Shown here: piece by piece, positions 1,143 through 63,861 of the stretch
Position numbering within the stretch: position 1 is the first letter of the stretch
How the letters are laid out: each line of letters begins with the position of its first letter
NCBI GenBank assembly: GCA_029556615.1
Contig: JAKQDD010000002.1
Location: forward strand, 124,001 to 188,000
Length of the DNA: 64,000 nt
Reading direction: 5' to 3'
Origin: Verrucomicrobiota bacterium
GTDB lineage: Bacteria > Verrucomicrobiota > Verrucomicrobiia > Limisphaerales > J093
Made by a program: the position numbers and the translations under genes
Notes under the pieces: model-generated
Told to the model about the DNA's origin: nothing
Seen by the model: only the letters and a program-made list of their open reading frames with translations
Databases searched by the model: none

Positions 1143-1180
1143 AATCCCACATCGAACGCGGGGGCCCGTCCAGAGCTGAC
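1143..1180 (-). promoter_or_regulatory. CAGCTC-class leaderless promoter for the 1142 gene
   Basis: Box GTCAGCTCT at 1180-1172, then 17 nt, then CGAT at 1154-1151; ATG at +39 of the box. The fit is exact, with CGAT in place of the usual CGAC. Confidence 0.75.
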
Positions 1181-1335
1181 TACGCGCAGCGCTTGATCTG
1201 CTCGCACCCACCACTCGAGGGGACGTCTGGCCCCGGCGGGGCCTTAGGCTCCTGGATGGAGGGGATCTTTCGCCCTGAGGTGCCGCAGCTACACCCGACC
1301 CACAGGATGAACACGTTGAACAGGAGGATCCTCAT
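1180..1335 (-). CDS. Small predicted lipoprotein
   Basis: This 51-residue gene begins MRILLFNVFILWVGCSC. A short hydrophobic segment followed by a lipobox-like LWVGC puts the lipidated cysteine at residue 15. The mature part is short, Pro-rich and ends with two more cysteines (GGCEQIKRCA). Its 5' end overlaps the gene at 1289-1486 by 47 bases in another frame. Overlapping small genes, one a lipoprotein, recall phage lysis (spanin) modules, but the partner has no membrane segment, so that reading is weak. No strong Shine-Dalgarno is seen; translation may be coupled to the upstream gene. It could also be a superinfection-exclusion lipoprotein. Confidence 0.6.
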   Translation of the reverse strand: MRILLFNVFILWVGCSCGTSGRKIPSIQEPKAPPGPDVPSSGGCEQIKRCA

Positions 1336-1486
1336 GGAGTGGTTTACCCCCGACGACGATCGCCTGCCCCACGACCTGCGCAGGGTAGGTGATGGTGTGA
1401 GACTCCATGGAGGACGTCGTCAGGAGACGATGGGGACCTTGGTGGATGACCTCCCAGTCCCGCTGCGTATTGTGTTCCTGTTCCAT
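1289..1486 (-). CDS. Small hypothetical protein overlapping the lipoprotein gene
   Basis: This encodes 65 residues beginning MEQEHNTQRDWEVIHQ. The ATG at 1486 is preferred over one at 1498 because a TATAAT hexamer lies at 502-497, overlapping the upstream ATG. The first 45 residues look like a small mixed alpha/beta domain (SHTITYPAQVVGQAIVVGG); the tail, which overlaps the lipoprotein gene, is low in complexity. The function is unknown. Together with the two following minus genes it forms a small island on the strand opposite the structural genes. Confidence 0.45.
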   Translation of the reverse strand: MEQEHNTQRDWEVIHQGPHRLLTTSSMESHTITYPAQVVGQAIVVGGKPLHEDPPVQRVHPVGRV

Positions 1487-1502
1487 GACTGCGCCCATTA
1501 TA
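1487..1502 (-). promoter_or_regulatory. Possible -10 element (TATAAT) for the 1486 gene
   Basis: TATAAT on the minus strand at 1502-1497, 10 nt before the ATG. No clear -35 is visible. Confidence 0.4.
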
Positions 1503-1515
1503 CGAGAGGACCCGC

Positions 1516-2115: not shown

Positions 2116-2125
2116 CATAACAACT

Positions 2126-9792: not shown

Positions 9793-9828
9793 CAGCTCCG
9801 GGTCACGAGGGGTCATCGACGCTTCCCC
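9791..9828 (+). promoter_or_regulatory. CAGCTC-class leaderless promoter for the 9829 gene
   Basis: Box AGCAGCTCC 9791-9799, 17 nt, CGAC 9817-9820, ATG at 9829: a perfect 38-nt fit. It begins right at the stop of the preceding structural gene. Confidence 0.82.
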
Positions 9829-10029
9829 ATGCCCCAGCCTCCCTCCGAGATGTCTGACGACGACCTCTGCACCGAGCTCATGGAGACCATCCTGCTCGCC
9901 AAGGCGGGTCGTCCTTGGGACCGAGAACGACTGCGCGCAGTCTCTGGGGAGATCGCGGACCGTGGCATCTTGCGGCGGAAGCGAACAGACAGCTCCAGGT
10001 CACAGGGTCCGCGCGCTTCCACCCCATGA
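9829..10029 (+). CDS. Small hypothetical protein upstream of the deacetylase-like gene
   Basis: This encodes 66 residues. The start is fixed by the promoter 38 nt upstream. The protein is helical and acidic at first (SDDDLCTELMETILLAKAG) and ends in a basic, Ser-rich tail. Its stop overlaps the start of the histone-deacetylase-family gene as ATGA, so the two are co-transcribed and probably translationally coupled. The family is not recognised; a small partner or regulator of the hydrolase is possible but only inferred from coupling. Confidence 0.65.
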   Translation: MPQPPSEMSDDDLCTELMETILLAKAGRPWDRERLRAVSGEIADRGILRRKRTDSSRSQGPRASTP

Positions 10030-17061: not shown

Positions 17062-17098
17062 TCAGCTCCGGTCGGATGCGGATCCCCGACCCCATAGC
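17061..17098 (+). promoter_or_regulatory. CAGCTC-class leaderless promoter for the 17099 gene
   Basis: Box GTCAGCTCC 17061-17069, 17 nt, CGAC 17087-17090, ATG 17099. Exact fit. Confidence 0.85.
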
Positions 17099-17689
17099 AT
17101 GAGCCCAGCAAACCCCGCGTTCCCCACGCTGGATCCCCCGCGCCCCCCTGGAAGCCTCTGGCTCCTCCAGGTCCTTGGGGACCACAAGAGTGAGGAGGAA
17201 GCGCACCAGGCGCTGTCCCTCCAACGGACCCAGGATGGGTTCGTTGGGGGTCGCGTCTACCGGACCAACAAGAGCGGCCAGGGACCGTGGCGTGCTCAGA
17301 GCTTCCACGTCGACGAGCCGGCCATGAAGGACTCCGTCATGCCGGACGGTATGCGTCGCGTGCTGGTCCTGCGCAGCCAGGTGATCCCGCTCGGGATTCA
17401 CGAGACCCTCTTTTTGACCCTCCTAGAGAGAAAACGTCCCGAGGGAGTGGTCGTGCGTCAAGACCTCAGCACCGCATCCGTTGAAGTGTCCAAGCTCAAG
17501 GAGGTCGACCGACTGACCGCGCGGCTACGATCACTCCCGTGGGACAAGATCGCGGCATGTCCCGGTGCAGCGAAGGTCATGTTTGACATCGCCAACGCAT
17601 ACCTCGACGGCCTTTCTGTCTCCCGTTTTGAGTATACGGGCTGGAAGTTCATCGTGGAGGTCGTGACTAAAGACCTAAGCCCCGAGTAG
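17099..17689 (+). CDS. Hypothetical protein, probably virion or tail associated
   Basis: This encodes 196 residues beginning MSPANPAFPTLDPPRPPGSL; the start is fixed by the promoter. The first 20 residues are Pro-rich, followed by an alpha/beta domain (LWLLQVLGDHKSEEEAHQAL; GMRRVLVLRSQVIPLGIHETLFLTLLERKRP) and a Lys-rich C-terminal domain (SKLKEVDRLTARLRSLPWDKI ... WKFIVEVVTKDLSPE). No catalytic motif is recognised. Position between tailspike-like and other virion genes suggests a structural or assembly role. Confidence 0.65.
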   Translation: MSPANPAFPTLDPPRPPGSLWLLQVLGDHKSEEEAHQALSLQRTQDGFVGGRVYRTNKSGQGPWRAQSFHVDEPAMKDSVMPDGMRRVLVLRSQVIPLGIHETLFLTLLERKRPEGVVVRQDLSTASVEVSKLKEVDRLTARLRSLPWDKIAACPGAAKVMFDIANAYLDGLSVSRFEYTGWKFIVEVVTKDLSPE

Positions 17690-18502: not shown

Positions 18503-18542
18503 GACAGCTCCTGTCCGTCGACGACACGTTTCCTACAAGAAC
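18503..18542 (+). promoter_or_regulatory. CAGCTC-class promoter, 2 nt longer spacing
   Basis: Box GACAGCTCC 18503-18511 lies 40 nt before the ATG at 18543, and no CGAC sits at the usual place. This is the least regular member of the set. Confidence 0.5.
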
Positions 18543-18758
18543 ATGAGCAACCTCCCGCCACCAAACCTCGTCCCCAGCCTCCCCAACGACCCCGCAGGAA
18601 TCAAGGCGGCCTGCGACCAGCTCCGAGCAGAGGTCCGGGCGCGCAGGCGCGAGATCGACGACCGTATCGAGGTGATCAATCTCCTTCAGCAACGGTGCCG
18701 CCACGTGTATCCCACGGACGGTTACGTCTGCAAGACCTGCGGGTACGACCGCGAGTGA
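18543..18758 (+). CDS. Small zinc-ribbon-like protein
   Basis: This encodes 71 residues: a Pro-rich N-terminus, a charged helix (ACDQLRAEVRARRREIDDRIEVINLLQQ, residues about 23-50), then a C-terminal zinc-binding signature C52-x-H54 ... C63-x2-C66. Coiled coil plus a small zinc ribbon is common in small phage proteins that bind nucleic acid or a virion protein. The start is chosen at 18543 from the CAGCTC box 40 nt upstream. Confidence 0.65.
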   Translation: MSNLPPPNLVPSLPNDPAGIKAACDQLRAEVRARRREIDDRIEVINLLQQRCRHVYPTDGYVCKTCGYDRE

Positions 18759-31610: not shown

Positions 31611-31648
31611 GACTGCTGGTCGGAGCAGGTCCTCGAAGCAGAGCTGAC
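31611..31648 (-). promoter_or_regulatory. CAGCTC-class leaderless promoter, minus arm of a divergent pair
   Basis: Box GTCAGCTCT at 31648-31640, 17 nt, CGAC at 31622-31619, ATG at 31610. Exact fit. The box overlaps the plus-strand box by 3 bp. Confidence 0.87.
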
Positions 31649-31683
31649 AGCTCCGCCCCGCCTCCACCCCGCGTCCTTGCGCC
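31646..31683 (+). promoter_or_regulatory. CAGCTC-class leaderless promoter, plus arm of a divergent pair
   Basis: Box GACAGCTCC 31646-31654, 17 nt, CGTC 31672-31675, ATG 31684. The combined core AGAGCTGACAGCTCC reads as a box in both directions. Confidence 0.83.
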
Positions 31684-33725: not shown

Positions 33726-33763
33726 GCCGGAGGGTCGATGTCGACGGACGGATCGGAGCTGCT
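33726..33763 (-). promoter_or_regulatory. CAGCTC-class leaderless promoter for the 33725 gene
   Basis: Box AGCAGCTCC at 33763-33755, 17 nt, CGAC at 33737-33734, ATG at 33725. Exact fit. Confidence 0.85.
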
Positions 33764-33971: not shown

Positions 33972-34444
33972 GGGGTCATCTCCGGCCACGCCTCGTTCGG
34001 GCGGAAGCCGTTCAGCTTGGCGGGAGGGGTTCGGGGGGTCATGAGGAGCACGACCGTCTGGGCCGGTCCGGCCGGGGGGCGCAGGATGTCGGTGGTCCCC
34101 TTGACCGTGCCGGTCCCCGTCTGGATGACGACCCCGCTGTCGTTGATCCCCAGGAGGGAGACCGAGTAGCTCGGTGCGCCCACGAAGCACTGGGCCGGGA
34201 TCTTGAAGCACCCCTCCAGCGCCGCAGCTCCCCAGCGGTAGGTGACAGGGTAGGGGCCGGGCCGACAGTCCGCGTCTCCCGTCACGTTGACGTAGCGCGT
34301 CTCCAGGCTGAGCGCCGCCACCTTGAGGGTGACGAACGGATACTCGCCACCCCCCTCGCTGCCAAGACCGCACCCCGCGATCCCAAGGAGCAGGGCTCCG
34401 AGGGCGAAGTGGGTCAACAAGGGAGAAGTCTTTCGTGGTCGCAT
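33962..34444 (-). CDS. Predicted lipoprotein
   Basis: This 160-residue protein begins MRPRKTSPLLTHFALGALLL and has lipobox GIAGC with the lipidated Cys at 25. The mature domain is beta-rich with three cysteines (ADCRPGPYPVTYRWGAAALEGCFKIPAQCFVG). The start at 34444 is chosen over an ATG at 34480 because GGAGG sits 9 nt upstream and the signal peptide follows at once. A CAGCTC box lies 52 nt upstream. The predicted +1 at 34458 starts a 14-nt leader whose first bases are that Shine-Dalgarno. Confidence 0.8.
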   Translation of the reverse strand: MRPRKTSPLLTHFALGALLLGIAGCGLGSEGGGEYPFVTLKVAALSLETRYVNVTGDADCRPGPYPVTYRWGAAALEGCFKIPAQCFVGAPSYSVSLLGINDSGVVIQTGTGTVKGTTDILRPPAGPAQTVVLLMTPRTPPAKLNGFRPNEAWPEMTPCQ

Positions 34445-34496
34445 GTAGTGGTACCTCCTCCCTCCAGTGGAGGTAGACATCGGACTTGGAGCTGAC
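34445..34496 (-). promoter_or_regulatory. CAGCTC-class promoter with 14-nt Shine-Dalgarno leader
   Basis: Box GTCAGCTCC at 34496-34488; ATG 52 nt downstream at 34444. With +1 placed 38 nt after the box, the leader would be GGAGGTACCACTAC. Confidence 0.72.
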
Positions 34497-41909: not shown

Positions 41910-41947
41910 GTCAGCTCTATTTCTCGTCGGAGTCTCGACGAGAACAT
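41910..41947 (+). promoter_or_regulatory. CAGCTC-class leaderless promoter for the 41948 gene
   Basis: Box GTCAGCTCT 41910-41918, 17 nt, CGAC 41936-41939, ATG 41948. Exact fit. Confidence 0.85.
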
Positions 41948-42514
41948 ATGCCAAGAACAATCACCACGGCCACGACCGGCACTCTGTCCGACACCCCCAA
42001 GCGCGCGCGGCGGGCTCGGAAGCCCACCCCCAAGACGCTGCACATGTCGGCGAAGGTGACGGGCCTGTTCTTCGGCCAACTGCTCGACGAGCAGGGGCGC
42101 GCGATAGGGTCTCGTGAGGGCTCAGTGCCCTCGATCTTCTGCCAGGGCGACAACGACTACCTGGAGTTTGACATCGACGTCCAGACGGGTCGGATCGTCG
42201 GGTGGAAGCGCCCCGACCCTGTGGACCTCTACAAGTTCCGTCAGCGAGAGGGCCACCTACGAGTGCCCCGCAACGAGAACACGCGCTGGATCAACATCCA
42301 GGGAAAGTGCTCCGACCTGTTCCTGGCCACGCTGTACGACGCGGAAGACCGCGTGATCGGAGAGTACGACGGCTACGCGTTGTCCTGCTGCCACGCGGGG
42401 GACGACGACTACGTCGAGATGGACATCGACGTGGACAGCGGGCAGATCGTCGGGTGGAAGCGCCCCGGTGCGGGCGAGCTAGCCCAGTTCAAGCCGGCTC
42501 GACAGGCGGCTTGA
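41948..42514 (+). CDS. Hypothetical protein with two tandem copies of a small beta domain
   Basis: This encodes 188 residues. A basic N-terminal tail (TPKRARRARKPTPKTL) is followed by two copies of the same about 65-residue domain: copy 1 SAKVTGLFFGQLLDEQGRAIG ... DNDYLEFDIDVQTGRIVGWKRP and copy 2 QGKCSDLFLATLYDAEDRVIG ... DDDYVEMDIDVDSGQIVGWKRP. Each is a compact beta domain ending in DIDV-(T/S)G-IVGWKRP. The duplication plus basic tail suggests binding to a symmetric or repeated partner, perhaps DNA. The promoter places the start; a longer reading would run back through it. Family not recognised. Confidence 0.72.
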   Translation: MPRTITTATTGTLSDTPKRARRARKPTPKTLHMSAKVTGLFFGQLLDEQGRAIGSREGSVPSIFCQGDNDYLEFDIDVQTGRIVGWKRPDPVDLYKFRQREGHLRVPRNENTRWINIQGKCSDLFLATLYDAEDRVIGEYDGYALSCCHAGDDDYVEMDIDVDSGQIVGWKRPGAGELAQFKPARQAA

Positions 42515-43067
42515 ACCCGTAGGCCGCCGCGACGATCTCCGCGGCCTCCTTGAACGCCTCGGCCCGACCCGCAAGTCGCGCCTCGTGGTAGACGAGTGGG
42601 TCTCCCTCCGCGCGGATCGCCGCCAGTACCTGCTTCCGCTCCCGCAACAGTCGAGCATGGATCTCGACCCCCCTAGGGTCCGGCGGCGGCGGGAGGACGG
42701 GAACCTTGGCGGTCGTGCAGTAGAACATGAAGATGTCCTCGGGACCTGGTACTCGCTCGTCTCCCGTGTCGGGGTTGACGAACGGCTTGCGGTCCCGCTG
42801 ACACGCGATCGCCTCCGCCGCCTCGTCGTCCGACAGCGTGACGTTCGCGTAGTCTTCGCCGAACGTACCGGGTCGCGTGCGGTCCACCAGGTAGACCGTA
42901 CGGGTGAGGTAGCCCGCCGCGGTGAGCTCGTCCATCACAGGCAGGAACTGCGTCTGCACTTCCGGGTAGGGCTGGAAGTTGCGGTACACCATCAGGTGCC
43001 CGACGCTGGTGTGGGTGGACTTTATGTGGGCGAGCGCACGTTCTGCAAGAGGGGAGAGACCGTCCAT
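42489..43067 (-). CDS. Hypothetical protein
   Basis: This encodes 192 residues beginning MDGLSPLAERALAHIKSTHT; the start is confirmed by the promoter. It has an N-terminal winged-helix-like segment (AERALAHIKSTHTSVGHLMVYRNFQPYPEVQTQFLPVMDELTAAGYLTRTVYLV), then a variable middle with PGPEDIFMFYCTTAKVP, and C-terminal helices (ARLLRERKQVLAAIRAEGD; GRAEAFKEAAEIVAAAYG). It is convergent with and overlaps the end of the 41948 gene by 26 bases, and divergent from the 43126 gene through a shared promoter region. Function unknown; DNA binding is possible. Confidence 0.65.
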   Translation of the reverse strand: MDGLSPLAERALAHIKSTHTSVGHLMVYRNFQPYPEVQTQFLPVMDELTAAGYLTRTVYLVDRTRPGTFGEDYANVTLSDDEAAEAIACQRDRKPFVNPDTGDERVPGPEDIFMFYCTTAKVPVLPPPPDPRGVEIHARLLRERKQVLAAIRAEGDPLVYHEARLAGRAEAFKEAAEIVAAAYGFKPPVEPA

Positions 43068-43105
43068 ACGAGGTTCTACCCCGACCAGTCAGCTCCGGAG
43101 CTGCG
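43068..43105 (-). promoter_or_regulatory. CAGCTC-class leaderless promoter, minus arm of a divergent pair
   Basis: Box CGCAGCTCC at 43105-43097, second element GTAG at 43079-43076, ATG 43067. The plus arm carries the same GTAG variant. Confidence 0.82.
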
Positions 43106-43125
43106 GTCCAGAAGTAGCATGAGGT
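43088..43125 (+). promoter_or_regulatory. CAGCTC-class leaderless promoter, plus arm of a divergent pair
   Basis: Box GTCAGCTCC 43088-43096, second element GTAG 43114-43117, ATG 43126. The two boxes abut, giving GTCAGCTCCGGAGCTGCG. Confidence 0.83.
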
Positions 43126-43802
43126 ATGAGCCAGGTCGTCGCACTGCTGGACCGTCCAAACCCCAAGTCTTTCGGGCGGGTCGCGTTCATCACGCGCAAC
43201 TCGCGGGGGGTCCTGCACACCCACGGGCTGCCCCGCAACCATGTCCTCCACGAGGAGGATGTGCAGGCCCTCGTGGAGGATGGGCACGCGGTTCTCCTGT
43301 GCCCAGAAGTTCCCATCCACGACGTACCGGAAGATTTCGTCGCCGGCTGGTTGGGAGACCGCTTCGCGGACTACATTCGTGGGGTCCCTCACGGACCTCC
43401 CCTGCCTGCGGTTCCTGCGGGGAGCCACCACGTCCCGCAGGGAACTTTCTGGATCGGGCGGTTGACCGAGGTGACCAGCGTGGTGCTCGACTGGATCCAG
43501 AGAGCTGCCCGCTGCGTGATCGCGCCCGGAGAGATGTCTGGGACCGACCGCGCCTACCTGGCGGGCCTGATGTCCTGGGCGCTACCCAGCGCTGACGAGA
43601 CGAAGGCCGCGCGCCTGTACGTCCAGGTGACTCCCGAAGCTCGTGCTCAGGAGATCGACCTCCTGCTTCGCATGGAGCGGGAGGCTGGAAGGCTCACGAT
43701 TCGATTCGATCCGAACTCGACGCGCGTCTCCACAAGATCATCGAGCAGTACGGGGCCTACTGCCCCGGAACGAACTCCTCCCCGACGACGACCACCACGT
43801 AG
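43126..43802 (+). CDS. Hypothetical protein with an apparent frameshift near its 3' end
   Basis: It begins MSQVVALLDRPNPKSFGRVAF and is alpha/beta for about 190 residues (VLHEEDVQALVEDGHAVLLCPEVPIHDVP; YLAGLMSWALPSADETK; ARAQEIDLLLRMEREAGRLTIRFD). After about 43705 the same frame turns into Ser/Thr/Arg-rich sequence with poor third-base GC. The -1 frame continues with good codon usage as SELDARLHKIIEQYGAYCPG and stops at 43802. I therefore give the end at 43802. The shift falls in the repetitive ATTCGATTCGAT tract at 43700-43710, where a slip, sequencing error or programmed -1 shift is possible; no classic slippery heptamer is seen. Read without a shift, it ends at 43827. Confidence 0.6.
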
Positions 43803-44566: not shown

Positions 44567-45178
44567 CTACCCTCCCTGGGCAGACCGCGCGAACTTCTCC
44601 CTGAGCTCATCTACGCGCGGGCGCAGCTTGTCGGCGAACTCAGGGTCCTGGCGCGCGTGGTCGATGAGCTCCCACGCATGCAGGAGCGTGGATAGGGGGA
44701 GTGCCCTCGCCCGCGCCATCATCCTTGCGAGACGGTCGAGCATGGTGATGGGGTCCTCCGTGGGGGCTGGGTCGTCCTCTCCCCAGCTTGGGGAGGCTGC
44801 CTCCTCGTCCGGCTCCTCGAACGACATCGGGGGCAGGCCCGCCAGCTCTTCGAGCCGGTCGAGCGCACCCTCAAGCGTCGCTCCCGTGCGCTCTCGAAAC
44901 GTGTCGACGATGTCCCGTGATCGCGAGCACGCGAAGCAGTGCCACCGGGGGGACTTTGGGTAGGTGCGGGCCGATGGTTTGTGGTCCTGCCCCGTCCCGT
45001 GGAGGTTGCATCGAAAGGGTTGCTCGATGTCCTCACCGTCCGGGTCGACCTCGTAGCCGAGGCGAGCGAGCAGGCGGACCAAGGGGACGCGCCGCAGCCG
45101 GCGCAGTCGGCGATCGTTGCGCGTGAGGCGCACAGGACGCTTTGCCGCGCCTTCAGCTCTGATCGTCGGGGATTCCAC
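44567..45178 (-). CDS. CHC2-type primase zinc-finger protein
   Basis: This 203-residue protein has a DnaG-type CHC2 zinc finger: PFRCNLHG with C57-x2-H60, then WHCFAC with C81-x2-C84, followed by RDIVDTFRERTGATLEGALDRLEELAG, the helix typical after such fingers. It lacks the TOPRIM polymerase core of full DnaG, so it is a stand-alone finger protein or the N-terminal half of a split primase. The N-terminus is very basic (RLTRNDRRLRRLRR) and could add DNA binding; an acidic linker (EEPDEEAASPSWGEDDPAP) leads to a helical C-terminus. Replication genes lie a few kilobases away on the same strand. Confidence 0.82.
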   Translation of the reverse strand: MESPTIRAEGAAKRPVRLTRNDRRLRRLRRVPLVRLLARLGYEVDPDGEDIEQPFRCNLHGTGQDHKPSARTYPKSPRWHCFACSRSRDIVDTFRERTGATLEGALDRLEELAGLPPMSFEEPDEEAASPSWGEDDPAPTEDPITMLDRLARMMARARALPLSTLLHAWELIDHARQDPEFADKLRPRVDELREKFARSAQGG

Positions 45179-45189
45179 GTCCTATCCTC
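45152..45189 (+). promoter_or_regulatory. CAGCTC-class leaderless promoter for the 45190 gene
   Basis: Box TTCAGCTCT 45152-45160, 17 nt, CGTC 45178-45181, ATG 45190. It overlaps the start of the opposite primase-like gene. Confidence 0.78.
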
Positions 45190-45621
45190 ATGGTTGACCT
45201 ACCCGCACGTGGGGTGCTGATCGTCACGGAGATGAGGTCCGAGCCGCTCACGGCAGCCCTGGACACTCTCGTTCGACGGTACAGGGAGCATTCCGGTTGG
45301 CAGGAGCGTATGTGGTGGGAGATCCATCTGGTACTTCGCTCCAGGCCGATAGAGGAGCGCACGGCCCTTGTTACGCCGCTAGCCAAGCAGTGCGTCGACT
45401 TCGTGGTCTGGACAGCCTCCCTTGAGGCAGAGGGGAAGGGACTCAAAGCGTACCTGGAGAGGGAGCAGGGAAGGGAGATCGGCGCGATAAGCTACGGAGT
45501 CATCGCGGCCGTGTCCCCGCCGTTTGTCCGTCAGGTGGTCTACAAGTCAGACTTCTACGGGGTCGTGTGCGAGCCCGAGGGGCTTGCGACCAACGATGAC
45601 GGGCTCCCAGGCAGGCTTTAG
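45190..45621 (+). CDS. Hypothetical protein
   Basis: This encodes 143 residues beginning MVDLPARGVLIVTEMRSEPL; the start is fixed by the promoter. It is helical, with TAALDTLVRRYREHSGWQERMWWEIHLVL and ALVTPLAKQCVDFVVWTASLEAEGKGLKAYLEREQG, then strand-rich (GAISYGVIAAVSPPFVRQVVYKSDFYG). The convergent methyltransferase piece ends inside its last 75 bases. Function unknown. Confidence 0.63.
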   Translation: MVDLPARGVLIVTEMRSEPLTAALDTLVRRYREHSGWQERMWWEIHLVLRSRPIEERTALVTPLAKQCVDFVVWTASLEAEGKGLKAYLEREQGREIGAISYGVIAAVSPPFVRQVVYKSDFYGVVCEPEGLATNDDGLPGRL

Positions 45622-46585: not shown

Positions 46586-46622
46586 TCAGCTCCGCAGGGA
46601 GCGGCGTCGCCGACTCCCACGC
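46585..46622 (+). promoter_or_regulatory. CAGCTC-class leaderless promoter for the 46623 gene
   Basis: Box GTCAGCTCC 46585-46593, 17 nt, CGAC 46611-46614, ATG 46623. Exact fit. Confidence 0.86.
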
Positions 46623-47264
46623 ATGATCCTCCTCGCGGCCAACGGCCTCCCCCGACAGGGCTTGAACCTGAAGCCCCTCACCCTCGTGACTGGAGCCGAC
46701 TGCGCGGAGCGAGTGGACCTCATACGGAAGGCCCTGCTCTCGCTGAAAGGACCCCTCCAGTCTCCCGTCGTGCGTGCCCGCCTCACGGAGAACGGGACGA
46801 CCTACCAGGCGCCTGTTCCGAGCGGTGCCGCACCCTACCTGCGCTGCATACTATCCTTGCGCCCCTCGAACGGAGACTCGCTGCGCGCCGCGTCCTGGTT
46901 CCAGAGCTGGTCGAAGAGCCTGGACTCGCACTCGATCTTCGAGACCCTGACGGGGACGCAGGTACGCGACGTGGTGGATCCCAGCGACGGGGACGCGTTC
47001 AACCTGAGGCTCGCGCGCTGCGTGGCCGACGCGATGGTCGACGCGATCCCCTCGATCGTCCTGCTCCCCGACGTGGTGTCTGGGAAGCTGCACGGCAGCT
47101 ACTCGGCGCACAAGCGCCTGGCCACCGTGCTCTGCGGCGTCGCGAGCCCCCACGTGGTCCTCGTCGTGGGGGCGAACCCCGACACGCACGCGGCCGTCAA
47201 GGAGGCGATTGCCCGTGGCGACCTGGACCCCGAGGACTATGTTGAGTGGAACGAGGAGAAGTGA
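46623..47264 (+). CDS. Hypothetical protein
   Basis: This encodes 213 residues; the start is set by the promoter. It has alpha/beta character (LTLVTGADCAERVDLIRKALLSL; RCVADAMVDAIPSIVLLPDVVSGKL; LATVLCGVASPHVVLVVGANPDTHAAVKEAI). The strand-loop-helix LTLVTGADCAERV resembles a nucleotide-binding fold, but the P-loop glycines and lysine are missing. Helices and strands alternate as in a Rossmann-like or P-loop fold with lost motif. Family not recognised. Confidence 0.65.
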   Translation: MILLAANGLPRQGLNLKPLTLVTGADCAERVDLIRKALLSLKGPLQSPVVRARLTENGTTYQAPVPSGAAPYLRCILSLRPSNGDSLRAASWFQSWSKSLDSHSIFETLTGTQVRDVVDPSDGDAFNLRLARCVADAMVDAIPSIVLLPDVVSGKLHGSYSAHKRLATVLCGVASPHVVLVVGANPDTHAAVKEAIARGDLDPEDYVEWNEEK

Positions 47265-53525: not shown

Positions 53526-53563
53526 GACAGCTCGCCCTCCAGCGCGTCGAGATGCCCTTCCGC
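53526..53563 (+). promoter_or_regulatory. CAGCTC-class leaderless promoter for the HNH-RNA ligase gene
   Basis: Box GACAGCTCG 53526-53534; ATG 53564 at exactly 38 nt. Second element is ATGC, not CGAC. Confidence 0.62.
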
Positions 53564-54640
53564 ATGACCCTCCTCACCCGAGATGCTTTTCGCGAGAGGG
53601 TGTTCGCGCGCGACCGCAGCCGGTGCGTCCTGTGCGGGAACCCCGGCCAGGACGCCCACCACATCCTAGACCGTCGCCTGTGGCCCGACGGAGGGTACTA
53701 CCTCGACAACGGAGCGACCGTGTGCGGGCCCTGTCACCTCCGCTGCGAGCGCACCGAGGTGACGGTCGAGCAGGTGCGCGAGGCCGCACGCATCCAGACG
53801 GTGCGTGTGCCCGACTACCTTCACGCGGAGGCCGTCATCGACAAGTGGGGCAACCCCTACCTACCGAACGGCCGCCGAGCGCTGGGCCCGCTCGGCTTCG
53901 AGGACAGCGTGCGACGCATCCTCCAGCCCGTGTGGCACGAGTTCACCTCGCGGGTGAAGCCTCCCCGAACCCTGCACCTGCCGTGGTCGCCGTGCGCGGA
54001 CGCCGACGACCGGTTCGTGCGTCCGCAGGACCTCGACTGGCTCCGGGCGCGGGAGGTGGTCGTGCTGGAGAAGCTCGACGGCGAGAACACCACCCTCGGC
54101 CCCGAGGCGGACTACCTGCACGCGCGGTCGATCGACGGGTACGCGCGTCATCCGAGCCGGTCCCGCATGCGCGCGCGCCACGCCTCCCTGTGGCGCGACA
54201 TCCCACCGGAGTTCCGCGTGTGCGGGGAGAACGTCGACGCCCTCCACTCGGTCGAGTACCACGACCTGTGCGCCGACGACGGGACGCCGGACCGCTTCTT
54301 CGTCTTCTCCGTCTGGGACCGAGACCAGGCGCTCGGGTGGGACGAGACCGCGCTCTACGCGCGGCTGCTCGGCCTACAGCCCATCCCCGAGCTATACCGG
54401 GGACCGTTCGACGAGGCCATCCTGCGGGGCCTCACGACCCAGGCGGCACTGCGCGGGGCACGGCGGTCCGGGAGCCAGGACCCGTCCGAGGGGTACGTGG
54501 TGCGCCCCCTCGGCCCGTTCCGCCTCACCGACTTCCCGCGCGCCGTCCTCAAGTGCCGCGTCCTCGGGGTGACCTCCCCCGACCACTGGACCCAGCACTA
54601 CACCCCGAACTGCGTCCGGGGCGAGTGCGAGCACCGCTAG
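53564..54640 (+). CDS. HNH nuclease domain fused to an Rnl2-like RNA ligase
   Basis: This 358-residue protein has two parts. Residues 1-85: an HNH zinc-type nuclease domain with C21-x2-C24, DAHHILDR (H32-H33) and VCGPCH (C54-x2-C57-H58). Residues about 130-350: an ATP-dependent nucleotidyltransferase ligase with motif I VLEKLDGEN (nucleotidylated K170), RVCGEN (motif III, 218-223), RFFVFSVWD (IIIa), SEGYVVRP (motif IV, 308-315) and AVLKCR (motif V, K330). This is the pattern of Rnl2/RNA_ligase family enzymes that seal nicks in RNA. The start at 53564 is chosen from the promoter. It is convergent with rtcB, overlapping by 4 bases at the stops. The combination could cut and reseal, or the HNH part could act as a targeting module. 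Confidence 0.88.
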   Translation: MTLLTRDAFRERVFARDRSRCVLCGNPGQDAHHILDRRLWPDGGYYLDNGATVCGPCHLRCERTEVTVEQVREAARIQTVRVPDYLHAEAVIDKWGNPYLPNGRRALGPLGFEDSVRRILQPVWHEFTSRVKPPRTLHLPWSPCADADDRFVRPQDLDWLRAREVVVLEKLDGENTTLGPEADYLHARSIDGYARHPSRSRMRARHASLWRDIPPEFRVCGENVDALHSVEYHDLCADDGTPDRFFVFSVWDRDQALGWDETALYARLLGLQPIPELYRGPFDEAILRGLTTQAALRGARRSGSQDPSEGYVVRPLGPFRLTDFPRAVLKCRVLGVTSPDHWTQHYTPNCVRGECEHR

Positions 54641-56052
54641 TCGCTTCCCTTCAAGTTGGCCACAGGCCACAAACGGTGTGCCAGGCGCGCGATGCCGTTG
54701 TCCTCCAGCACCTTGAGCACTACGTCCAAATCCTTATAAACATGACCACACTCGTCGAGCGGGGTCCGCTCGCAGTTCCCGACGATCCCCACGACCTCCG
54801 CGCCACCCGCCTCGCGGCGGATCGTCCGCATCTCGTGGTCGATGTCGTCGTGCAGCGCCGCGAGCTCGCGCTTGGCCGCGTTGCGGCCCATCACGCGCCC
54901 CGACCCGTGGTTCACCGAGCAGCCCGACTGGTACGCCCCCTCCTGCGGCCACAGGATCGCCGCGCCGGTCAGCATCGACCCAGGGATGAGGCACGGGTGG
55001 CCGGTCTTGGCCCACTTGGTCCCCACCAGGTCCGGGTGCCCCGCCGGGAACGCGCGGGTCGAGCCCTTGCGGTGGACGAGCCCCTTCTTCGTGGTGCCGT
55101 CAGGAAGCACGAGGGTCTCCTCCTGGACCAGGTTGTGGCTGATCTCGTAGAAGAGCTCGGGACGCGCACCGAGGACCTCCTCGGTCGCCTCCGCGACGCC
55201 AGCCGCGATGACGTGACGGTTCGCGACGGCGAAGTTCGCCGCCGCGTTATGCCACTGCCAGTACAGGCGACCAAGCTCCGAGTCCAGCCGCAGGCACGAC
55301 TCCTCCTTGCGCCCGCGCGGGAGGTCGTTTAGCTCCGCCCCACGGTCGAAGAAGTAGTCGGCCGCCTGCCAGCCGAAGCCGCGCGACCCGCAGTGAACCA
55401 TCACCCACACCTCGCCGGTCGACCGCTCGACCTGGAGCTCGACGAAGTGGTTTCCCCCGCCGACGGACCCAAGCTGCGGTGCCGCCTTCGAGAGCGCCTT
55501 GGGGATGAGCTTCTCGTCGAACAGGTTGTCGTCGATGGGGATGTAGGGGCGCTCGCAGAGGTCGAGGTTTCCTCCGACCGCCTTCGCCCCGTAGCGCAGG
55601 ACCTCGCTGACCTTGCGATCCGAGGGCGACCGCATGAGGCGCGGTCGGTTCCCTCCCTTGTCGTAGCCAAGCGCCACGCGGTCCGAGACCGCCCGCACCC
55701 AGCGCTCGCGGAGCGCCCAGTCGGCGACGTCCCGCGCGTGCAGGTTCGGTACCCGGAGGTACACGACGCCGCAGGAGATGTCGTACCCGCTGCCCGCCTG
55801 CGCCACCACACCGTCGGTCACGAGCACCCCTCCCACGGGGAGGACGTACCCCTTGTGGCAGTCGGGCTGGAGGTACATCCCGATCGCGCCCGGCGTAGAC
55901 GCAGACTTCGCCGCGTCCGCCCACATGTCCTCCTCGGAGGCCGCGTAGAGCTCGGGCGACAGGAACGCCGTGACATCGCACCGCATGGTCCCTACGCGCG
56001 GGAGAACGAACTTGCTCGGGCCGACCTGCTCGACCTGGTACTTGAACGACAT
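54637..56052 (-). CDS. rtcB: RtcB RNA-splicing ligase
   Basis: This 471-residue protein has the hallmarks of RtcB, which joins RNA 3'-phosphate or 2',3'-cyclic phosphate to 5'-OH using GTP and Mn2+: GMYLQPDCHKGYVLPVGGVL at about 78-97, AGSGYDISCGVV (metal ligands D, C), SVGGGNHFVEL (N, H), VHCGSRGFG (H), and SVNHGSGRVMGR with the histidine guanylylated in catalysis; HVYKDLDVVLKVLE near the C-terminus matches too. The start at 56052 has AAGGGA 8 nt before. A CAGCTC box lies 52 nt upstream. RtcB repairs breaks left by tRNA-cutting nucleases. Confidence 0.95.
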   Translation of the reverse strand: MSFKYQVEQVGPSKFVLPRVGTMRCDVTAFLSPELYAASEEDMWADAAKSASTPGAIGMYLQPDCHKGYVLPVGGVLVTDGVVAQAGSGYDISCGVVYLRVPNLHARDVADWALRERWVRAVSDRVALGYDKGGNRPRLMRSPSDRKVSEVLRYGAKAVGGNLDLCERPYIPIDDNLFDEKLIPKALSKAAPQLGSVGGGNHFVELQVERSTGEVWVMVHCGSRGFGWQAADYFFDRGAELNDLPRGRKEESCLRLDSELGRLYWQWHNAAANFAVANRHVIAAGVAEATEEVLGARPELFYEISHNLVQEETLVLPDGTTKKGLVHRKGSTRAFPAGHPDLVGTKWAKTGHPCLIPGSMLTGAAILWPQEGAYQSGCSVNHGSGRVMGRNAAKRELAALHDDIDHEMRTIRREAGGAEVVGIVGNCERTPLDECGHVYKDLDVVLKVLEDNGIARLAHRLWPVANLKGSD

Positions 56053-56104
56053 GATGGATCCCTTTCTGGAGATGGTCGAAAGGGTGCCGAATTTTGGAGC
56101 TGAG
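56053..56104 (-). promoter_or_regulatory. CAGCTC-class promoter with 14-nt Shine-Dalgarno leader (rtcB)
   Basis: Box CTCAGCTCC at 56104-56096, 17 nt, CGAC 56078-56075. The predicted +1 at 56066 starts leader GAAAGGGATCCATC, then ATG 56052. Confidence 0.82.
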
Positions 56105-59699: not shown

Positions 59700-60034
59700 G
59701 CCGCCCCCCGCGATTCTTCGGCCTGCCCCGCAGGTTGGATGGTTACGGGCTCGCAGTTCCACACGCTCACGCACCCCGACACATCGTCGAGAAACACCAC
59801 GGGCTCCTTGGATGCGCTCAGGTACGCCCTGCGAGAGACCGTACAGGTCTGGGACTTGTCCCACTGCCCCCATATGGGGAAGTAGCGAACGATGGTACCG
59901 ACGGGACACACGAGGTTGAACAGCACCGCGCGGTCGGCCGCGTGCGCGGAGTCCACATGCGGGGGCCTTCGCCGGCTCTTGTCCACGCGCAGCGCCTGCA
60001 TGGACTCTTCTAGTAGGACGGGATCTAGCTCCAT
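59696..60034 (-). CDS. Hypothetical protein
   Basis: This encodes 112 residues beginning MELDPVLLEESMQALRVDKS. The C-terminal half shows a strand-rich domain (VLFNLVCPVGTIVRYFPIWGQWDKSQTCTVSRRAYLSASKEPVVFLDD), with several cysteines (VCPV, TCT, SGC, NCEP). Such a Cys/Trp-rich strand region suggests a small beta barrel, but no family can be named. It is first in the seven-gene operon running to 56471 and shares its promoter region with the divergent 60113 gene. Confidence 0.6.
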   Translation of the reverse strand: MELDPVLLEESMQALRVDKSRRRPPHVDSAHAADRAVLFNLVCPVGTIVRYFPIWGQWDKSQTCTVSRRAYLSASKEPVVFLDDVSGCVSVWNCEPVTIQPAGQAEESRGAA

Positions 60035-60073
60035 GGGCGCGCAGTCTATCAGGAACAGGGGCGGAGAGCTGTC
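60035..60073 (-). promoter_or_regulatory. CAGCTC-class promoter, minus arm of a palindromic divergent pair
   Basis: Box GACAGCTCT at 60073-60065; ATG 60034 is 39 nt on, one base longer than the norm. Confidence 0.62.
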
Positions 60074-60074: not shown

Positions 60075-60112
60075 GACAGCTCTGCTAGAAATCATGGTGG
60101 AGAAAGAGCCCC
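60075..60112 (+). promoter_or_regulatory. CAGCTC-class leaderless promoter, plus arm of a palindromic divergent pair
   Basis: Box GACAGCTCT 60075-60083, ATG 60113 at exactly 38 nt; second element AGAA. Both arms form the perfect palindrome AGAGCTGTC-A-GACAGCTCT at 60065-60083. Confidence 0.7.
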
Positions 60113-60958
60113 ATGTGGAAACGAAAGACCCAGACCCTGCGTACCACGCGGGAGGTGGTGACCGCCTCTGCCCGTCGTGGTGAACCGTCCACCCTGATCC
60201 CCGCTGAGTACCTCAAGCGGAGAAGCACCTGCCCCGGTGGGTCGCCGGAGGATTTTCCCGGCGAATACTTCATGCGCGTTCACAAGTTCCGCGTCATGAA
60301 GATGCCCAGCCGCCTGGGGGATGTCTTCCTCACCCGTGCGGGCTTCGAGCACTTCAAGGAGGACCTCAAGGCCGCCTGGGCCGCGAGCGGCAACGCCGAC
60401 TGGGGACGGTTCGAGCGCTCCGTCAACATCTTCCTCGGTGGCGTTGAGAACGAGGCCGCGCGCCAGGCTCGCAAGGCGCAGCGCCACCTGTACGTCAGCC
60501 TGTCGCGGGACCAAGTCATCGCGCAGGCTGCCCGCGGGAACATCGGCCAGTACGGCCTGGAGGCCCGCAGCCAGTACGACCAGCAGACCGCCCGCGAGCC
60601 CGAGGACTTCCCGAAGACCTACTTCGTGCAGCTTCAGCGCTGGAGCTACCTGCCGGCCTCTCCCCGCAGCGGGACCACCTACCTCTCACGCGCGGGCTTC
60701 GAGCACTTCAAGGAAGACCTGCGCGCAGCGTACGAGTCCGCGCCTCTTCCCGCGCCTCTTCCCGTGCCGTCCTACGGCTACAACTACGGCCGTCCTCCCG
60801 TCCCCCAGGGACCGCGACGCTTCGAGGACTTCGAGAAGGCTGCCGTCGAGTTCTACAAGAACGTCGACGACACCATCGCCAGGCTAAAGGACACGCTCCA
60901 GCGGAAGAAGGACCGGCTGGACCGGGAGATCCAGAAGCTCGCCGGCTTCACCCTCTAG
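60113..60958 (+). CDS. Hypothetical protein with internal duplication
   Basis: This encodes 281 residues. A basic N-terminus is followed by two copies of a unit ending (F/Y)L(T/S)RAGFEHFKEDL(K/R)AA: at about residues 71-87 and 201-217; the surrounding blocks (YFMRVHKFRVMKMPSRLG and YFVQLQRWSYLPASPRSG) are also similar. A long C-terminal helix (FEKAAVEFYKNVDDTIARLKDTLQRKKDRLDREIQKLAGF) may form a coiled coil. Internal duplication plus coiled coil is consistent with an assembly factor or virion protein. The promoter sets the start. Confidence 0.68.
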   Translation: MWKRKTQTLRTTREVVTASARRGEPSTLIPAEYLKRRSTCPGGSPEDFPGEYFMRVHKFRVMKMPSRLGDVFLTRAGFEHFKEDLKAAWAASGNADWGRFERSVNIFLGGVENEAARQARKAQRHLYVSLSRDQVIAQAARGNIGQYGLEARSQYDQQTAREPEDFPKTYFVQLQRWSYLPASPRSGTTYLSRAGFEHFKEDLRAAYESAPLPAPLPVPSYGYNYGRPPVPQGPRRFEDFEKAAVEFYKNVDDTIARLKDTLQRKKDRLDREIQKLAGFTL

Positions 60959-60960
60959 CG

Positions 60961-60998
60961 ATCAGCTCCGCGCGGGGGGATCCCTTCGACCCTCCCGC
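60961..60998 (+). promoter_or_regulatory. CAGCTC-class leaderless promoter for the 60999 gene
   Basis: Box ATCAGCTCC 60961-60969, 17 nt, CGAC 60987-60990, ATG 60999. Exact fit, right after the previous stop. Confidence 0.86.
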
Positions 60999-61298
60999 AT
61001 GACCACAGAGCCCAACGACAAGTTCGACCACGAGCAGCACGTCCGCCTCCTCGAGGAGGCGGAGCGTGAGCTCCGTCGCAGCGGACAGCACGACCACCTG
61101 GCGGGCGCGGTCTCCCGCGCCGTCATGTTTCACCACGAGTTCATCTCCCGGATCGGCGCGGCCCGCAACACGCAGGACCAGCTTCGACGCCTGGCCGACA
61201 AGCTGCACGCGGAGGCCCGATCGATGGGCGAGTACGTCACTAAGGAGGATCTCCCGTGGATCTCCAAACTCAAGGCGTTCATCTGGCCCGTTCGCTAG
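60999..61298 (+). CDS. Small helical protein
   Basis: This encodes 99 residues beginning MTTEPNDKFDHEQHVRLLEE. It is mostly helical with repeated charge patterns (AERELRRSGQHDHLAGAVSRAVMFHHEF), then RLADKLHAEARSMGEYVTKEDLPW and a hydrophobic end (ISKLKAFIWPVR). A His-rich patch lies mid-protein. Family not recognised. It stops 8 nt before the kinase gene and may be co-transcribed with it. Confidence 0.62.
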   Translation: MTTEPNDKFDHEQHVRLLEEAERELRRSGQHDHLAGAVSRAVMFHHEFISRIGAARNTQDQLRRLADKLHAEARSMGEYVTKEDLPWISKLKAFIWPVR

Positions 61299-61306
61299 AG
61301 ACCCCT

Positions 61307-62062
61307 GTGGAACCAACACGCTTCTTCGTCCTCGGGTCCAGCAACTCCGGTAAGACCCCGTTCGCGCGCCACCTGGCGGGGGCGCTCGGCCTCCCCGTGG
61401 TGAGCGCGTCCGAGTGGTTCCGGGCGAACTTCCCCCCGCAGGGATCGACGAGCCGTCAGGAGCACACCGACGCGCTCGTGCAGTTCAACAACACGGTGAT
61501 GGGGGCCGACCCGGACTTCAACCTGCGATACCTGCGCGAGCACCACGACCTCAACGCAGCCTGCGTGATCGAGGGGTTCCGAAACCCGCGCGACTTCGCG
61601 ATCGAGTTCAACGCGCGGCGTGACCGCGCGATCCTCCTCCAGTGCGAGGAAACGGAGATCATACCGACGTCGTTCGACAAGGGGCTCACGGTCATCCGCG
61701 ACTACCTCGCCTACCTCCAGTCGATCGGGATGGTGCGCGCCGACCAGGTCACCCACGTCAACATGAAGCGGTTCGCGGACATCGAGCGGTCCGTGTTCGA
61801 CTACCTGCGCAGCCTCGACGTGGAGGTTGAGCTTGACCTGCTGCGCGCCAAGACCGCCCTCGGCGCGCACAGCACCCACTACTACCCGGACCCCGAGCAG
61901 TTCCCCGACCCCGGAGAGGGCGCGACGGGGACGGTGATCGTGGTGCGGGGCAGCCAGCGATACCCCGCGCGCTTCGTCCGACGCCCTGGGGCGTACGAGG
62001 GGCGCAGCTTCTACCTCGTGCTCGACGCCTCGAACCCCGTACCCAACGAGAAGACCCCATGA
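61307..62062 (+). CDS. P-loop nucleotide/nucleoside kinase-like protein
   Basis: This encodes 251 residues. Walker A is FFVLGSSNSGKTPFA (GSSNSGKT at 10-17), with a following ARHLAGALGLPVVSASEWFRANF helix as in adenylate-type or nucleotide kinases. ACVIEGFRNPRDFAIEFNARRDRAILLQC (about 88-116) matches the core of such kinases (a D/E in the strand after the substrate helix). The C-terminal 60 residues are beta-rich (GTVIVVRGSQRYPARFVRRPG). The GTG start at 61307 follows the stop of the previous gene; a longer GTG start at 61256 would overlap that gene. A nucleotide or RNA end kinase would fit the neighbouring repair genes, but the substrate is not decided. Confidence 0.72.
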   Translation: MEPTRFFVLGSSNSGKTPFARHLAGALGLPVVSASEWFRANFPPQGSTSRQEHTDALVQFNNTVMGADPDFNLRYLREHHDLNAACVIEGFRNPRDFAIEFNARRDRAILLQCEETEIIPTSFDKGLTVIRDYLAYLQSIGMVRADQVTHVNMKRFADIERSVFDYLRSLDVEVELDLLRAKTALGAHSTHYYPDPEQFPDPGEGATGTVIVVRGSQRYPARFVRRPGAYEGRSFYLVLDASNPVPNEKTP

Positions 62063-63366
62063 GCCTACAGCCCGCCTCGTTTCCCCAGGAGGTCGTCGAC
62101 CTCTGCCGACGCCTCCAGCAGGCGGGCCACGCGGCCTACCTGGTCGGTGGCGCGGTGCGAGACCGCCTCCGCGGGGATCCCCCCAAGGACTTCGACCTCG
62201 CCACATCGGCCCGGCCTGAACAGGTCCAGGGGGTGTTCTCCGACCTGCGCGTCATCCCCACGGGGATCGCGCACGGGACGGTCACCGTCATGACCCCAGG
62301 AGCTTCCTCGCTCCCCGTGGAGATCACCACGTTTCGAGGAGACGGGACCTACTCGGATGGTCGACGTCCCGACAGCGTCGTGTTCCTCGACGACGTCGTC
62401 GAGGACCTCCGGCGTCGCGACTTCACGATCAACGCGATCGCCTACGACCCCGTGGCGGACAAGGTCGTCGACCCGTTCGAGGGCCAGCGCGACCTGGGGC
62501 TTGGTCAGGTCAGGGCGGTCGGCGACCCCGTCGCGCGCCTTCGGGAGGACGGCCTGCGCGTCCTGCGCGCCGTGCGGTTCGCGGCGCGCTTTGGGTTCAC
62601 GATTGAGGCCGCTACGTGGCGGGCCATCCCGTCGGCGCTCGACGTGCTGCGCCAGGTGAGCCGCGAGCGCGTGCGCGACGAGCTCCAGAAGATCATCCAG
62701 CGGGAACCCAGCCTCGTGTTCCACGGCCTCGACCTGCTGTTCTTCGCCAAGAGTTGCGACATCCTTGGGACCATCCTCCCAGACCTCGCCCCGCACGCCA
62801 GGACCCTCGACGACAACCAGGGAGATTGGATCTACGTCGTGTCCAACGTACCGGTCGGCCATCGGTGGACGGCGCTGCTGTGGCCGCTGCGCGAGCACTT
62901 CCGCGCGCAGGGCATGGACCGTCGAGCCGTGGGGCAGTACCTCTACGAGACGCTGCGCCTGTCGACCGCGCACTGTGAGGGGCTGTCCTGGGCGCTCACC
63001 GCCGACCTCCCGACCCTCGGGCCGGAGATGGGGGCCGTGCGCCGCTTCCTCGCCCTTCACCCGAACGACCAGGAGGGCATCAGGACGTGGCTTTTGGTGG
63101 GGCAACGCATCGAGGAAGAGAGGATGAGCGGGCACGCGTTCAAACACCTGGCGACCCGCATCCAAGACGCTCAGGTCAAGCCCTTCCCGCTCCGCCCAGG
63201 CGAACTCGACCTGAGCGGAGCGAACATCGTCTCCGACCTCGGCATCCCCCCAGGCCCCCGGATCGGGGAGCTCCAGCGCGCGCTGCATGCCTGGGTGCTG
63301 GATGACCCCACACGCAACAAGCGCGCCCTCCTGATCGAGGAGGCCCGCCGCCTCCTGTCTGCGTAG
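62059..63366 (+). CDS. cca: tRNA CCA-adding nucleotidyltransferase-like protein
   Basis: This 435-residue protein shows the class II CCA/poly(A) polymerase head: LVGGAVRDRLRG (28-39), DFDLAT with catalytic D44 and D46, then EITTFRGDGTYSDGRRP, and DLRRRDFTINAIAYDP (motif C and the Arg/Asp that pair with CTP/ATP), GDPVARLREDGLRVLRAVRFAARF (body domain). The length and domain order fit bacterial CCA-adding enzymes, which build or repair the 3' CCA of tRNA. Start overlaps the kinase stop as ATGA. Poly(A) polymerase I-like activity cannot be excluded. Confidence 0.9.
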   Translation: MSLQPASFPQEVVDLCRRLQQAGHAAYLVGGAVRDRLRGDPPKDFDLATSARPEQVQGVFSDLRVIPTGIAHGTVTVMTPGASSLPVEITTFRGDGTYSDGRRPDSVVFLDDVVEDLRRRDFTINAIAYDPVADKVVDPFEGQRDLGLGQVRAVGDPVARLREDGLRVLRAVRFAARFGFTIEAATWRAIPSALDVLRQVSRERVRDELQKIIQREPSLVFHGLDLLFFAKSCDILGTILPDLAPHARTLDDNQGDWIYVVSNVPVGHRWTALLWPLREHFRAQGMDRRAVGQYLYETLRLSTAHCEGLSWALTADLPTLGPEMGAVRRFLALHPNDQEGIRTWLLVGQRIEEERMSGHAFKHLATRIQDAQVKPFPLRPGELDLSGANIVSDLGIPPGPRIGELQRALHAWVLDDPTRNKRALLIEEARRLLSA

Positions 63367-63374
63367 GATGAAAC
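63364..63374 (+). promoter_or_regulatory. TANNNT-class leaderless -10 element
   Basis: TAGGAT 63364-63369, 5 nt, ATG 63375. It overlaps the stop of the previous gene. Confidence 0.42.
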
Positions 63375-63824
63375 ATGAAGCTCAACCTCGGATGTTGTGA
63401 CCGCATCCTTGCGGACTACGTCAACGTCGACATCGTCGCCGGCCACGGCGTCGACGTCGTCGCCGACCTCTCCAAGCCCTGGCCCTGGCCAGACGGGTCC
63501 GTCGAGCGTGTCCGCGCCCACGACGTCATCGAGCACCTTCCCGACAAGATCCACACGATGAACGAGCTCTGGCGCGTGCTCGCCCCTGGCAGGATCGTCG
63601 AGATCGCCGTTCCCACGACGGACGGGCCAGGAGCCTTCCAGGACCCCACGCACGTCTCCTTCTGGAACCGACGCAGCTTCCTCTACTACGAGGCGGGCAA
63701 CATCTACCGGGAGAGGTTCGCGCGCGCCTACGGGATCCAGGCGGCCTTCCGCGTCCTGCGGGAGCACACGACCCCCACGATCGACGGCCCCCGCCTGGAG
63801 ATCCACCTCCAGGCGATCAAGTAG
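63375..63824 (+). CDS. Class I SAM-dependent methyltransferase
   Basis: This 149-residue protein is a short class I methyltransferase: MKLNLGCC (residues 1-8, motif I, where the usual GxGxG reads LNLGCC), VNVDI (motif post I acidic residue), and RAHDVIEHLPDKIHTMNELWRVLAPGRIVEIAVPT (motifs III-V). The LNLGCG...N(V/I)D...HVIEHL pattern is that of glycan- and lipid-biosynthesis methyltransferases and SAM enzymes near glycosyltransferases. Its substrate is unknown; phage cases may act on surface sugar or a base. TAGGAT ends 5 nt before the ATG. Confidence 0.82.
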   Translation: MKLNLGCCDRILADYVNVDIVAGHGVDVVADLSKPWPWPDGSVERVRAHDVIEHLPDKIHTMNELWRVLAPGRIVEIAVPTTDGPGAFQDPTHVSFWNRRSFLYYEAGNIYRERFARAYGIQAAFRVLREHTTPTIDGPRLEIHLQAIK

Positions 63825-63861
63825 TCAGCTCATATTCAGCGTGCCTCTTCGACTTACAGGC
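63824..63861 (+). promoter_or_regulatory. CAGCTC-class leaderless promoter for the 63862 gene
   Basis: Box GTCAGCTCA 63824-63832, 17 nt, CGAC 63850-63853, ATG 63862. Exact fit. Confidence 0.84.

Follow-up and report, generated by a model that had tools for sequence, protein, structure and literature searches.

Sigma factors with private promoters are known from phages SPO1 (gp28) and T4 (gp55). Jumbo phages without an RNA polymerase (RNAP) of their own have also been connected with such factors: those of group 2 carry sigma factors, according to the accessible text of two publications (PMC7824862, PMC13282480), and the second, a review, states in its accessible part that they probably use them at phage-specific promoters. 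Phage transcripts are often leaderless, and leaders of 26-491 nt occur in phage AR9 (PMC5312081, available portion), while most middle and late mRNAs of the Thermus phage phiYS40 are leaderless (PMC3594737, available portion); in leaderless genes of Deinococcus-Thermus, the −10 element lies next to the open reading frame (ORF) (PMC12340547, available portion). Here we analysed a stretch of 64,000 nt (the window; positions 124,001 to 188,000 of contig JAKQDD010000002.1, assembly GCA_029556615.1, Verrucomicrobiota bacterium), in which a CAGCTC box and a CGAC element recur at fixed distances before ATG codons, and we propose that these serve as −35 and −10 in a leaderless promoter class private to one jumbo phage and read by a sigma factor of that phage.

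Within the window, bare CAGCTC is not enriched (55 observed versus 50.3 expected), whereas CAGCTC-N30-ATG occurs 16 times against an expectation of 0.46, a count that 100 shuffles never reached, so the significance lies in the positional constraint rather than in the hexamer itself. A first-pass annotation made from the sequence had pointed to 20 boxes upstream of gene starts, and all of these were found in place. It had put 16 of them at one fixed distance from the start codon, which holds for 15; box 26564 on the minus strand leads to a GTG with a 73-aa frame and is probably no true gene start, and one site, box 9990 on the plus strand, had been overlooked, bringing the number back to 16. 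At these sites, the −10 tetramer is CGAC in eight, CGTC in two, GTAG in two, CGAT in one and another sequence in three, the same counts for the four named tetramers as had been given before.

The class is not confined to the window, as its description as window-wide had implied, but is spread over four contigs with 123 raw CAGCTC-N30-ATG sites. In the whole bin (7.2 Mb, 260 contigs), the full form CAGCTC-N18-CGAC-N8-ATG gave 60 matches versus 0 for the reversed pattern, all of them on C242, which holds the window (27), C37 (16), C103 (15) and C98 (2). The loose form gave 181 matches in the bin versus 114 reversed, and the 123 on the four contigs compare with 3.5 on average for other distances; 115 of the 123 start a frame of at least 60 aa. 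These contigs total 426.5 kb, encode portal, terminase, major head protein and tail proteins, and correlate in tetranucleotide composition at 0.959-0.996 with each other versus 0.87-0.88 with 17 stretches of six other bin contigs. They probably represent one jumbo phage that is likely not quite complete, and the earlier idea of a phage promoter agrees with the location of all 60 full matches on contigs of common composition with phage genes. C37 and C103 begin with an identical 31-mer, probably an assembly fork.

The portal protein shares 56% identity with that of LR745208, an uncultured phage of 485 kb, 37% with that of Tunturiibacter phage Tunturi_5 and 23% with that of phage G. The portal search kept 80 of 84 viral stretches; with the terminase as query, tblastn found relatives in phages, and the viral_contigs search found none. 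The motif itself occurred in eight stretches of viral_contigs, once in each and with two pairs alike, which was read as chance. Among 24 portal relatives searched with up to two mismatches, there were 122 matches in sum versus 184 reversed, again read as chance, with the largest excess in the relative G005 (13 versus 5 reversed); none was exact. On C37 beyond 60 kb, the location of the virion genes and of several replication genes, the class is scarce (4/79 genes versus 103/408 elsewhere, p 2e-5), which suggests a role other than late expression.

The logo over the class reads T-CAGCTC-C-G, then T-C-G-A-C, then C directly before ATG. Among 487 genes called on the phage contigs, the box starts exactly 36 nt before the start codon in 107, at 37 in 12 and at 35 in 3, and boxes with one mismatch at 36 (n=3) stay at background level, so CAGCTC is nearly invariant. 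CGAC is present in 60 of the 123 raw sites, A at −10 in 99, and a pyrimidine (C or T) at −1 in 122. If transcription starts at the A of ATG (+1), CAGCTC falls at −36/−31 and CGAC at −12/−9, the usual places of −35 and −10 elements, and the two elements keep the fixed spacing of a sigma-70-family promoter. The pairing is also visible away from ATG codons: in the 245 boxes without ATG at 34-38, CGAC peaks at the 18-nt offset (11 cases, versus 1-6 at any one of the remaining offsets between 8 and 29). These patterns argue for a private phage promoter class in which the box serves as −35 and CGAC as −10 element.

We also considered that the box might be an activator site or an RNA-level element, such as a processing or translation signal, rather than a −35 element. 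Most −35 elements are less invariant than CAGCTC, and the box often stands directly after a stop codon, within 10 nt in 38 of 68 co-directional cases. Such a role is nevertheless very improbable in our judgement, given the −35/−10 spacing, the second element at −12, the divergent pairs with abutting boxes (inter-start gap 53-85 nt in 8/9 pairs with two boxes) and the boxes that precede longer leaders with a Shine-Dalgarno (SD) site.

Several features suggest that the mRNAs of this class probably begin at the A of ATG, as the first-pass annotation had supposed. At the box distance of 36, raw matches number 123 for ATG, 5 for GTG and 1 for TTG versus backgrounds of 3.5, 6.3 and 2.5, which leaves ATG as the sole enriched start codon, and 106 of the 107 called genes with the box at 36 start with ATG. 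SD-like sites occur in 9/107 of these genes, close to the shuffled expectation of 6%, compared with 19/22 for boxes at 45-60 (Fisher p 3e-13) and 83/156 operon-internal genes (p 4e-15); the remaining classes are boxes at 35 or 37 (2/15), boxes elsewhere (2/12), co-directional genes that have a gap but lack a box (58/107) and divergent genes with no box (21/66). The distance from −10 to start codon is exactly 12 in 54 of 60 genes, with SD-like sites in 2/54. The class thus shows the fixed −10 distance, the ATG and the missing SD that characterize leaderless genes, and, with SD sites near chance at 36 and usual at 45-60, the same box seemingly serves both leaderless and short-leader genes. Among box-36 genes with a match in relatives (n=14), the alignment begins at or before residue 12 in 8 and later in 6 (67 and 52 for other genes), which offers weak support for the predicted start codons.

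The first-pass annotation had suggested a non-canonical sigma factor or RNA polymerase as reader and had named no such protein in the window. A divergent sigma factor sequence of extracytoplasmic function (ECF)-like type is indeed encoded on the same contig, about 102.5 kb upstream of the window (C242:20701-21474, minus strand). A sigma hidden Markov model (HMM), built from 20 of the 28 sigma ORFs of the bin (<340 aa; frames picked by position, some possibly wrong), matched it at E 7.7e-6 across sigma2 and sigma4, in the order of ECF-like factors. PHROG 1740 (RNA polymerase sigma factor) matches residues 116-256 at E 1.1e-6, and a profile of nine homologues matches the solved sigma-H structure 3mzy at E 4.2e-9. 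Pfam sigma2 had no match on the phage contigs, and some homologues of the candidate give weak, sub-cut-off Pfam Sigma70_r2 matches. The family occurs at 55 viral loci, with LR745208 as its only match in the phage record collection, and in 36/36 homologue pairs sigma2 is more conserved than sigma4. The gene is preceded by GGGTA 15 nt before its ATG and has no CAGCTC box of its own.

The polymerase half of that suggestion found little support. Jumbo phages of the phiKZ kind carry their own polymerases (PMC13282480, accessible part), and one here could read the box directly; yet the four contigs, of a possibly incomplete genome in which beta was not searched, have no beta' match and no DFDGD-type motif in six frames, and we give such a polymerase next to no weight. 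A search for single-subunit polymerases (PF00940) matched no control and is uninformative. With a divergent phage sigma present, element positions that fit a holoenzyme and no phage beta', the likely reader is the phage sigma C242:20701-21474, which would act on host polymerase.

Two further phage proteins carry sigma4-like domains, and either might replace sigma4 of a host sigma at the −35 element: the 127-aa protein C37:97939-98322 (Sigma70_r4 E 5e-9), itself behind a box, and C37:128340-128969 (E 7e-12), with two tandem sigma4-like domains. In a structural model of the latter, the first helix-turn-helix domain may resemble sigma region 4, with structure matches none of which lies below E 0.001; the protein is conserved in the phage group, with relatives in 146 viral stretches, of which 80 were kept. 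The former presumably keeps a sigma-70-like helix, has four cysteines invariant among eight homologues and a poor AlphaFold model (mean pLDDT 61.7), and tblastn with it found nothing in phages and plasmids. These two proteins were favoured at first and then set aside, as their recognition stretches are alike despite differing codes: SQPTVCYRL of the tandem protein is identical in this phage, the relative G001 and the first G005 copy, whose −35 elements differ, and TRERVRQIE of the 127-aa protein compares with TRERIRQVE in G001. We therefore regard them as quite unlikely readers. Adjoining the tandem protein is a NusG-like (KOW-type) protein, recognised by eye (C37:128978-129634, minus strand), with homologues in G005 and G001.

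Comparison with relatives also bears on the proposed phage sigma as reader. Pairs of 4-mers were surveyed upstream of genes with gaps of at least 30 nt in nine sets (this phage, G001, G002, G005, G009, G016, G017, G020 and G023). The sigma family is present in this phage, G001, G002, G005 and G020, each with one dominant −35/−10 pair: AGCT-N19-CGAC here (58/295; whole sequence 72 versus 10 reversed), CTTA-N17-GTAG in G001 (34/184; 56 versus 25) and G002 (82/263; 119 versus 30), TAAA-N17-CGAT in G005 (35/280; 48 versus 0) and TGTA-N16-CGTG in G020 (16/160; 21 versus 1). None of these four relatives has the CAGCTC/CGAC pair. G009, which has a different, Pfam-recognised sigma (E 1.8e-18), shows TTCC-N17-GTAA (21/116), and G016, G017 and G023 have no clear −35/−10 pair, with a weak CGGT-N8-TATG in G016 and G017. 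Sigma and code were compared for five of the nine phages in the sigma alignment; the sigmas of G001 and G002 are the most alike of the ten pairs (sigma2 41/55, sigma4 16/40) and alone share a code, and the next-best sigma4 similarity is 10/39, between this phage and G005. A survey of short sigma-bearing loci had 0-5 usable starts per locus and failed to recover the known motif from fragments of this phage and G002. The −10 element lies at least 20 nt from the start in 32/33 genes of G005, 36/38 of G001, 82/84 of G002 and 10/17 of G020 (6/17 at 12-13), and these long leaders carry SD-like sites in 26/32, 33/36, 73/82 and 6/10; the predicted near-universal leaderlessness is peculiar to the present phage among the five. 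It is about evenly balanced, in our view, whether a single inherited ECF-like sigma, through a fast-diverging domain that reads −35, gave each lineage its own code, merged here with the start codon in more than 100 genes.

A host sigma, for instance of ECF or sigma-28 type, could instead be exploited at these promoters, with the phage sigma serving another class. The sigma-28 (FliA/WhiG) consensus consists of CTAAA and GCCGATAA elements, which the promoters of G005, an LR745208-like record, presumably resemble (CTAAA-N17-CGAT, 48 copies at N17 in 400 kb, mostly with short SD leaders). CAGCTC/CGAC of the present phage does not fit that consensus, no full match lies in the bin off the phage contigs, and in genome_contigs (84,980 species) the strict motif hit 82 stretches, with one match in each of the 80 listed and a second, loose CAGCTC-N30-ATG in 9 of these 80, taken as chance, so that repeated use in cellular genomes is not apparent there. 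We hold this exploitation of a host sigma to be unlikely. Two of the listed contigs with the motif belong to one archaeal metagenome-assembled genome.

We thus propose that the phage sigma C242:20701-21474, of the sigma-70 family, would join host RNA polymerase and direct the holoenzyme to T-CAGCTC-CG-N16-CGAC-N7-C before ATG; that transcription would begin at the A of ATG and ribosomes would take up the AUG of the leaderless mRNA directly; and that the same promoter, with its box 45-60 nt upstream, would give a short leader with an SD site. Several points weigh against this proposal. Exact CGAC is missing from 63/123 ATG sites, and the gene-class counts lean on a caller that gave bonuses for ATG, SD and box, of which the raw pattern counts are independent. 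The best phage match of the bin-sigma HMM is the tandem sigma4-like protein, through its sigma4 part alone (E 2.7e-7), both sigma4-like proteins could act as readers, and no Pfam Sigma70_r2 match to the candidate is listed to E 10, a level at which HMMER filters drop most weak ones. Better conservation of sigma2 than of sigma4 is usual for sigma factors and no proof, and the link between sigma and code rests on five genomes and one code-sharing pair; G001 and G020 have different codes with sigma2 at 40/55 and sigma4 at 5/34, so that sigma2 similarity alone leaves their differing −10 elements unexplained. The composition of the phage contigs is also unlike the rest of the bin. With these points taken into account, the whole scheme of private elements, phage sigma on host polymerase and leaderless start remains, in our estimation, fairly probable.

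The members of the class in the window are collected in Table 1.

Table 1. Predicted promoters and related boxes of the CAGCTC class in the window; positions are those of the window.
Feature	Span	Strand	Box	−10 element	ATG	ORF (aa)	Remark
Promoter	1140..1178	-	1178-1173	CGAT 1154	1142	92	
Promoter	9793..9831	+	9793	CGAC 9817	9829	66	Box immediately 3′ of ORF 6352-9792
Promoter, overlooked in first pass	9990..10028	+	9990	CGCT 10014	10026	306	
Promoter	17063..17101	+	17063	CGAC 17087	17099	196	
Weaker member	18505..18545	+	38 nt 5′ of ATG	No CGAC in place	18543		
Promoter	31608..31646	-	31646-31641	CGAC 31622	31610	275	Abuts box of divergent gene
Promoter	31648..31686	+	31648	CGTC 31672	31684	337	
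Promoter	33723..33761	-	33761-33756	CGAC 33737	33725	119	
Box with leader	34442..34494	-	50 nt 5′ of ATG		34444		SD-like GGAGG in leader
Promoter	41912..41950	+	41912	CGAC 41936	41948	188	
Promoter	43065..43103	-	43103-43098	GTAG (variant) 43079	43067	192	
Promoter	43090..43128	+	43090	GTAG (variant) 43114	43126	233	
Promoter	45154..45192	+	45154	CGTC 45178	45190	143	
Promoter	46587..46625	+	46587	CGAC 46611	46623	213	
Box	53528..53566	+	53528	ATGC instead of CGAC	53564	358	ATG of gene caller 12 nt earlier
Box with leader	56050..56102	-	50 nt 5′ of ATG	CGAC at usual 18-nt offset	56052		AAAGGG in leader
Box	60032..60071	-	37 nt 5′ of ATG		60034		Divergent to neighbouring promoter 60077..60115
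Box	60077..60115	+	60077	AGAA instead of CGAC	60113	281	
Promoter	60963..61001	+	60963	CGAC 60987	60999	99	
Promoter	63826..63864	+	63826	CGAC 63850	63862	379 on C242	ORF extends beyond window

A second leaderless class, GGGTA-N9-ATG, is possible: the four contigs hold 28 copies, compared with about 5.8 for other spacings, and 21 of these copies coincide with called gene starts, with examples at 43067, 53510 and 51862 of the window (all minus) and on C242, C37 and C103, and GGGTA-type hexamers are enriched between genes in several relatives. Outside the window, C242:85648-86121 (plus) encodes a CarD-like protein (CarD_C E 5.6e-6; no other CarD_C match is listed for the bin) with CAGCTC 35 nt before its likely ATG; tblastn of a CarD fragment found nothing in phages. 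C103:32334-37550 (minus) encodes a methyltransferase-helicase of 1738 aa that also matches Hint/intein and LAGLIDADG, and two GroEL-like proteins were recognised by eye (C37:68719-70338 and C242:1458-2924), with a GroES family match among the scanned C37/C98 proteins. The family scan, which covered about three quarters of the called phage proteins, a few of the other 127 and a minority of those above 420 aa, also gave RNA ligases, a histone deacetylase domain, a Tpt1/KptA family protein and the RlaP family, a set that suggests RNA repair functions in this phage.

Leaderless phage mRNAs are already known, as are, at the level of an idea, the sigma factors and presumed phage-specific promoters of RNAP-less jumbo phages. 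No description of the present promoter was found in the literature searched, with most subscription papers outside its reach, and the accessible parts of PMC7824862, PMC13282480, PMC7162821 and PMC12619734 describe none. Five phages now have both promoter sequences and a sigma candidate, which makes the link from sigma to promoter directly testable. More than 100 alike leaderless promoters in one genome would make a clean system for leaderless translation, and the motif is useful for fixing start codons. Promoters of ECF sigma factors have a strict −35 element, a short −10 element and rigid spacing, and the present class is like them in all three; no ECF group is known to us that fits a CAGCTC −35 with 18 nt to CGAC, a comparison made without a search of ECF databases. 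For its −10 element, phiYS40 depends on a host-type sequence. The phage studied here is like phiYS40 in its predicted leaderless mRNAs, as far as the available portion of the review PMC3594737 describes those of phiYS40, and unlike it in having a distinct −35/−10 sequence and a candidate phage sigma. As in the leaderless genes of Deinococcus-Thermus, the −10 element stands directly before the start codon, with the difference that a near-invariant −35 box is present and that the genes are those of a phage. Like the phage sigmas with private promoters, the candidate would redirect host polymerase; unlike in those earlier cases, the promoters are named from sequence, about 100 predicted leaderless genes are involved, and most of the relatives with this sigma family have differing codes.

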